The notes under the pieces were generated by a model, which searched no databases, was not told the DNA's origin, and saw only the letters and a program-made list of their open reading frames with translations. From contig BQML01000032.1 in the NCBI GenBank assembly GCA_022180565.1, positions 1 through 64,000 on the forward strand: a stretch of DNA of 64,000 bases, given 5' to 3'. Numbering within the stretch: the first letter of the stretch is position 1; every line of letters starts with the position of its first letter. The translations under genes were made by a program, and so were the position numbers. The stretch is from Bacteroidia bacterium. Its GTDB lineage: Bacteria > Bacteroidota > Ignavibacteria > UBA10030. Positions 48,867 to 49,049 of this stretch are shown in pieces.

Positions 48867-49049
48867 TGGAGCTGGTGGTCTGAATTGAACCGACGACTTG
48901 CGGGGTTTTATCCCGCCCATCCTTACACGCCGTTGAGCTGCGGGCCGGACTTGAACCGGCAACCTGCGGTTTACGAAACCGCTGCTCCACCATTGAGCTA
49001 CCGCAGCGAGTCAGGTCGGCGGGCCTGCTCTACCGCCGAGTCCACCAGC
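48867..49049 (-). other. Two tRNA-like halves flanking tRNA-Thr
   Basis: Upstream (49019-49049) the minus strand reads GCTGGTG-GA-CTC-GGCGGTA-GAG-CAG, which looks like the acceptor 5' strand and D arm of a tRNA. Downstream (48867-48919) it reads GCGGG-ATAAAAC-CCCGC, a variable piece, a T arm GTCGG-TTCAATT-CAGAC with one mismatch, CACCAGC, T and an encoded CCA. The outer 7-base acceptor strands are exactly complementary (GCTGGTG / CACCAGC). Between the halves lies tRNA-Thr plus about 35 unassigned bases. Either one tRNA gene has been split by insertion of another, or two neighbouring tRNAs have decayed. The anticodon loop would carry AAA, which is rare. With 48730-48805 (nothing seen) and 49050-49142 (nothing seen) this accounts for the 413-base gene-free stretch. 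Confidence 0.45.
48936..49007 (-). tRNA. tRNA-Thr (anticodon CGT)
   Basis: Clover-leaf on the minus strand: acceptor GCTGCGG / CCGCAGC (7 bp), D stem GCTC / GAGC, anticodon stem GCGGT / ACCGC with loop TTCGTAA (anticodon CGT), five-base variable loop, T stem GCCGG / CCGGC with loop TTCAAGT. CCA is not encoded. All stems are fully paired. Confidence 0.9.

Follow-up and report, generated by a model that had tools for sequence, protein, structure and literature searches.

In the 64-kb stretch of DNA analysed here (the window), an intact tRNA-Thr(CGT) gene lies between the displaced 5' and 3' pieces of another tRNA-Thr. We think it probable that this locus is the scar, now devoid of a nuclease gene, of a homing-like system that is linked to GIY-YIG nucleases and invades tRNA genes, leaving an intact tRNA behind. 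Across the Bacteroidota, genes for a family of small GIY-YIG proteins occur together with tRNA genes and displaced pieces of these same tRNAs; that this system also generated the arrangement in the window is what we infer.

Results

The nested locus spans positions 49049-48867 of the window, with all of its features on the (-) strand (Table 1), in a genome of 3.0 Mb in 111 contigs that falls among the Ignavibacteriales/Ignavibacteria. The earlier note on this DNA had described a 5' piece running from GCTGGTG to GAGCAG upstream of the intact tRNA-Thr(CGT), and a T arm, a complementary acceptor strand CACCAGC and CCA downstream of it, and both pieces are indeed located where it had placed them. 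In the 3' piece, four of the five T-stem pairs are kept and the sequence ends with CACCAGCTCCA at position 48867. The anticodon arm that had been assigned to the downstream side has to be given up: the segment gcggg-ataaaac-cccgc is not a normal arm, as its left part belongs to an inverted repeat, of which GCCCGCC (49024-49018) is the other arm. Running tRNA callers over the locus, as had been proposed, recovered the inner tRNA, and neither piece was called by ARAGORN or Infernal. The intact gene encodes the only CGT tRNA found in the tRNA survey of the genome and is presumably functional. Fewer than 100 bp separate the tRNA parts, leaving no room for a gene, and a search of the insert for group I/II intron structures gave no Rfam match at the gathering threshold, nor locally at E≤10. 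The hairpin formed by ATCCCGAC and GTCGGGAT may serve to terminate the tRNA transcript; a terminator scan did not report it, as its 9-base loop exceeds the limit of the scan. The stem of this hairpin resembles the palindromes.

Table 1. Features of the nested tRNA-Thr locus and its flanks (positions within the window).
Feature	Position	Strand	Remarks
Flanking frame, atpD			one side of the locus; name read from translation
Hairpin ATCCCGAC...GTCGGGAT with T-rich tail	48815..48839	(-)	read from sequence; directly after 3' piece
Displaced 3' piece TAAAACCCCGCAAGTCGTCGGTTCAATTCAGACCACCAGCTCCA	48867..48910	(-)	3' side of anticodon arm, T arm, acceptor strand CACCAGC, TCCA
Inverted-repeat right arm GGGCGGGA	48911..48918	(-)	read from sequence; CCCGCC/GGCGGG pair
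Spacer, intact tRNA to right arm			16 bases
Intact tRNA-Thr(CGT)	48935..49007	(-)	ARAGORN; Rfam RF00005, 70.5 bits
Spacer, left arm to intact tRNA			10 bases
Inverted-repeat left arm GCCCGCC	49018..49024	(-)	read from sequence; abuts end of 5' piece
Displaced 5' piece GCTGGTGGACTCGGCGGTAGAGCAG	49025..49049	(-)	acceptor strand GCTGGTG and decayed D arm, end ...GAGCAG
Flanking frame, PP2C/SpoIIE-like phosphatase	49143-50270		other side of the locus; name read from translation

By their sequence, both outer pieces appear to stem from one tRNA-Thr(CGT) allele of the GCTGGTG...CACCAGC type, rather than from the inner tRNA. The 5' piece agrees with the 5' end of the tRNA-Thr(CGT) of relative G020 at 22/26 positions as compared to 18/26 for the inner tRNA, and the 3' piece at 35/42 as compared to 30/42. 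When ranked against the flanks of ~184 non-Thr tRNAs as the null, the 5' and 3' pieces came out at 2/185 and 0/183, respectively, and the halves of the G020 allele find their best places within the whole window at the nested locus, which makes chance an unlikely source of the two pieces. Common descent from a single allele accounts for the outer acceptor strands being still complementary. As the joined outer halves give no usable tRNA, the pieces are almost certainly displaced remnants of a tRNA-Thr.

In relatives, the Thr(CGT) site carries debris of various kinds. The order phosphatase, tRNA-Thr(CGT), atpD is kept in G012 and G023, which carry different debris, and the pair of phosphatase and tRNA-Thr is kept in several further relatives. 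Debris is present on both sides in G006 and G015, as in the window, while G020 and G043 have an upstream 5' piece only, followed by TCCCGAT, and G012, G013 and G023 a T-arm piece downstream with hairpins in the T loop. Two tandem dead copies, joined at AGCTCA and with a hairpin replacing the anticodon stem, are found in G008, and the dead copies in G020 are likewise tandem neighbours. The site is free of debris in G041 and G022. At the position of the left arm, that is after GAGCAG, relatives G020, G043 and G006 have TCCCGAT..., and at the position of the right arm G020, G008 and G006 have ATCGGGA followed by TAAAC. The same-genus genome G001 (72% complete) gave no match to the Thr locus and is therefore unusable as an empty site.

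Displaced pieces are not restricted to this locus. In this genome, pieces of the adjoining tRNA itself lie upstream of Thr-TGT, Asp, Met, Gln and others (5' pieces) and downstream of Gly-GCC and Pro-TGG (3' pieces). We surveyed 176 tRNAs in five Ignavibacteria genomes of the family, using the flanks of unlike tRNAs as the null and a score of at least 14 as threshold. This yielded 21 upstream 5' pieces as compared to about 1 expected and 29 downstream 3' pieces as compared to about 2 expected, with only seven 5' pieces downstream and two 3' pieces upstream, i.e. on the wrong side. About a quarter of the tRNA genes in these five genomes have such self-derived pieces; the same survey detected none around the 33 tRNAs of G036, a genome of another family. 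The side bias implies that an intact copy has always been retained between the pieces. At one tRNA-Met (L097; G000:C42), the same leader, TGTAATTCAACGAT, precedes both the intact tRNA and the 5' piece upstream of it, which directly indicates that leader and 5' part were duplicated together.

Forms in which one tRNA is nested in another were found for Trp, Val and Thr. In the tRNA-Trp of G006 and the tRNA-Val of G012, the outer halves make up one perfect tRNA, with the break in the anticodon loop and a second, complete tRNA enclosed. In the G006 tRNA-Trp, this loop (CTCC/AAAACC, the slash marking the break) is interrupted by ~132 bp, which are bounded by CCGCCTGCC and GGCGGGCAGG and contain a complete Trp tRNA. 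Its congener G019 provides the empty site: at the same rpmG-Trp-secE position (L228/L239 comparison), the gene is uninterrupted and, except for one base, of the G006 outer type. The inner Trp tRNA of G006, in turn, is identical to the allele of G012, which belongs to another genus. At this Trp locus, a foreign tRNA was thus inserted within the resident's anticodon loop, and this insert carries no GIY-YIG gene. A decayed version of the Trp insertion (..CC/CCGCCTGC..) is present in G023, G024, G008, G000 and G015. For the tRNA-Val(CAC) of G012, joining the outer halves GGGCGAT...CTCACAC and GCGTAACG...ATCGCCC gives a perfect tRNA, which differs from the inner one by paired changes in acceptor and T stems. 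The perfect outer halves in G006 and G012, together with the uninterrupted Trp gene of the congener, support the reading of these loci as insertions. The earlier note had proposed for the window either insertion into a tRNA gene, which has its parallel in these nested Trp and Val forms, or decay of two neighbours, for which the tandem dead Thr copies of G008 and G020 speak. As both outer pieces fit one allele other than the inner tRNA, the window locus leans towards insertion, without proving it.

The displaced pieces often contain additional DNA, mostly hairpins in the D loop, the anticodon or the T loop, and many of these were inserted without loss of any tRNA base. When compared with shuffled versions, 22/26 inserts were more stable. 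They usually have T as the first and A as the last base (e.g. TCCCG..CGGGA or TCCGCC..GGCGGA), and double hairpins such as TCAGCCGAAGGCTGATCCGCCTCTGGCGGA occur. A dispersed palindrome does not suffice as the sole cause: the CCCG..CGGGATAAA form has three copies in this genome, only one of which is at a tRNA, namely at the nested Thr locus, and the palindrome family GATCCGCCT.TGGCGGA.AA, which is dispersed in 10/41 relatives and also found outside tRNAs, is absent from this genome. In G025 (L027, L037, L043 and others), the GATCCGCCTCTGGCGGAGAA hairpin occupies the loop of another inverted repeat (ATCCT...AGGAT), and from these cases palindromes may favour the loops of stem-loops in general.

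At the tRNA-Pro(CGG) of G008, a short ORF for a GIY-YIG nuclease lies between the intact tRNA and a dead copy. A search with PF01541 in six genomes provided 25 small GIY-YIG ORFs among those whose loci were retrieved. In a tree, these ORFs separate into subfamily A with 16 and subfamily B with nine members (support 0.96), and all members of subfamily A (16/16) as compared to none of subfamily B (0/9) are located at tRNA genes (Fisher p 5e-7). Fifteen of the former are beside a called tRNA and the remaining one is at a contig end, where the upstream frame looks tRNA-derived. The far side of the subfamily-A ORF holds a piece displaced from the tRNA at which the ORF is located. The encoded proteins comprise ~80-95 aa, that is the catalytic domain without a separate DNA-binding domain; PF01541 was matched in 13/13 proteins, and the motif residues Y, Y-x-G, R and E are invariant. 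By profile, the nearest solved structures are GIY-YIG proteins of the UPF0213 / SLX1 type (1ywl and 1zg2; for SLX1, 7cq2 and others).

A profile of subfamily A detected relatives in 46/148 genomes of the phylum Bacteroidota. In the pooled set of family loci and 28 new loci, a tRNA was in reach at 40 loci. The GIY-YIG ORF was on the strand of the tRNA at 40/40 and within 100 bp of it at 35/40 of these, and displaced pieces of the own tRNA, often scarred by hairpins, were present at 38/40 (score of at least 16) as compared to 3.5% for unlike tRNAs as the null. Hence, the association of nuclease, tRNA and pieces holds across the Bacteroidota. Searches of a phage and a plasmid collection gave three weak matches in the former and none in the latter.

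In this genome, piece, GIY-YIG ORF and intact tRNA are arranged together at Pro-GGG, Asp, Ala-CGC and Arg-CCG. At Pro-GGG (G000:C39:39382-40098; L273, L280, L101), the order is 5' piece, GIY-YIG ORF, intact tRNA-Pro, a different GIY-YIG ORF and 3' piece. A sub-threshold Rfam tRNA match (19.9 bits) at C39:40016-40098 corresponds to this 3' piece, and more GIY-YIG fragments follow downstream. Elsewhere (L288, L294, L295 and L305), GIY-YIG ORFs and dead tRNAs form tandem runs, which suggests repeated insertion at one tRNA. In these runs and at G098:C34:6988-9769, the GIY-YIG ORFs form arrays with a regular spacing of ~320-370 bp beside tRNA genes. The window has no match to subfamily A anywhere, nor do the other tRNA-Thr(CGT) loci examined, and a six-frame profile search revealed neither a GIY-YIG ORF nor a relic of one at the Thr locus. 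Without a nuclease gene, the window locus can only be a relic.

Discussion

These observations can be accommodated by the following process. A single-domain GIY-YIG nuclease encoded beside a tRNA gene would cut a related tRNA gene, probably in a region coding for a loop. Repair would then introduce donor DNA with the nuclease gene, a copy of the tRNA or both, so that an intact tRNA is present at all times. The resident's 5' part would remain on the upstream side, its 3' part on the downstream side, or both, as useless remnants, often with palindromic DNA at the break, in which case the hairpins would mark the break points. Finally, the nuclease gene would be lost and the pieces would decay. 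The window, with pieces and inverted-repeat arms in place and no nuclease gene, would represent this last stage. Several points count against this reading. Neither the window nor any other tRNA-Thr(CGT) locus examined has a GIY-YIG ORF or relic, and the small GIY-YIG proteins, unlike classic homing enzymes, have no separate DNA-binding domain. Moreover, no foreign donor allele was identified for the inner tRNA of the window, and the nuclease-free inverted-repeat cassettes (Trp, Val, Thr) might be products of a process separate from that at the GIY-YIG loci.

The main rival is plain tandem duplication, in which slippage or unequal crossing-over would leave one copy intact while truncated neighbours decay, the palindromes being unrelated dispersed repeats and no nuclease taking part. 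We consider it unlikely, though with an appreciable chance of being correct. A single breakpoint inside the tRNA would by itself place 5' pieces upstream and 3' pieces downstream, and the joined dead Thr copies of G008, the duplicated leader at the G000 tRNA-Met and the occurrence of one palindrome family outside tRNAs all fit. However, duplication leaves unexplained the strict co-occurrence of subfamily-A ORFs with tRNAs and pieces, the foreign inner Trp allele within a gene whose empty site is preserved in the congener, and the clean insertion points in loops. Highly improbable, in our view, are att remnants of ordinary integrase-type elements that had integrated in tRNA genes and were then deleted. 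Such integration typically leaves a 3' tRNA piece downstream of the intact gene, and pieces of this kind are common here; yet upstream 5' pieces, which integration does not predict, are as common, the distance to the pieces ranges from tens to a few hundred bases, the genes in between being GIY-YIG ORFs and not integrases, and relatives have GIY-YIG ORFs and apparently no integrase at otherwise identical loci. Least plausible of all is that the outer halves are co-transcribed with the inner tRNA, pair by way of the acceptor strands and yield, on processing, a second tRNA of split, permuted or nested type, as the earlier note had envisaged: the acceptor strands are fully complementary, the transcript folds at -79.3 kcal/mol with inner cloverleaf and acceptor pairing retained, and the G006 Trp and G012 Val halves are still perfect, but ARAGORN makes no call on the directly joined window halves and only a doubtful Phe(AAA) when the palindrome is kept, the D arm is decayed, eight anticodon-region bases present in the intact allele are absent, at least one of the pieces is gone in most relatives and no Rfam intron family was matched, which makes a functional nested tRNA at the window locus very unlikely.

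The nuclease-linked process that we favour has counterparts among known mobile elements. SegB of T-even phages is a free-standing GIY-YIG homing endonuclease encoded in the phage tRNA region, whose inheritance it promotes; it cuts inside tRNA genes at the motif RAWTSGAAC, the complement of which, GTTCSAWTY, is the T-arm consensus (PMC2988022, PMC13096335). Common to SegB and the Bacteroidota family is a GIY-YIG gene among tRNA genes. However, SegB acts in phage genomes, whereas the Bacteroidota family is found at chromosomal tRNAs with pieces of the own tRNA adjoining and often with hairpin inserts, and its cutting activity is putative. In fungal mitochondria (Allomyces atp6; Glomus atp6, atp9, cox2 and nad3), mobile endonuclease ORFs come with a foreign gene end (PMC3630166). 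There as here, an ORF and a supplied piece rebuild an intact gene while the native end is displaced beyond the ORF; the fungal elements reside in mitochondrial protein genes, whereas the system described here concerns bacterial tRNA genes, in which displacement can affect the 5' as well as the 3' piece and the supplied part can be a whole tRNA. As in free-standing homing endonuclease elements, the GIY-YIG family combines a homing-type catalytic domain with a gene located at the presumed target, in contrast to the window locus, which has neither. Classic homing enzymes such as I-TevI possess a separate DNA-binding domain and a long recognition site, whereas subfamily A consists of the catalytic domain only. 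It might therefore be a structure that is recognised, as with the SLX1 relatives, SLX1 being a structure-specific nuclease. To our knowledge, nucleases of the UPF0213 / SLX1 type are not known as tRNA-linked mobile genes. Short hairpin-forming inserts in genes, including RNA genes, are familiar from the Rickettsia palindromic elements and REP sequences; the hairpins here are in loops of dead tRNA pieces.

A bolder version of the homing reading, which we put forward tentatively and would not yet bet on, extends it to the entire phylum. That is, minimal selfish units, each combining a single-domain GIY-YIG nuclease with hairpin DNA and a copy of a tRNA, may home into tRNA genes throughout the Bacteroidota, repeatedly replacing residents with foreign alleles by supplying whole tRNAs or parts thereof. 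What the nuclease reads may be the stem-loops of tRNA genes, not a long sequence. The inverted-repeat cassette of ~130 bp with a complete foreign tRNA, of which G006 Trp and the window Thr would be examples, may be a nuclease-less form moved in trans.

A full-text literature search, incomplete in coverage with few subscription journals, retrieved no prior description of tRNA-linked GIY-YIG genes in bacterial chromosomes. Nor did this search reveal the combination of a GIY-YIG gene with displaced or supplied tRNA at bacterial chromosomal tRNA genes across a phylum. The common view is of tRNA genes as essential and stable, invaded mainly by integrases. If true, the homing-like process would provide a route for the horizontal replacement of single tRNA genes, and would account for the rapid change of acceptor stems among closely related genera as well as for tRNA pieces that are overlooked by automated annotation. 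The model also yields a testable prediction on the role of small GIY-YIG ORFs, which are very common.
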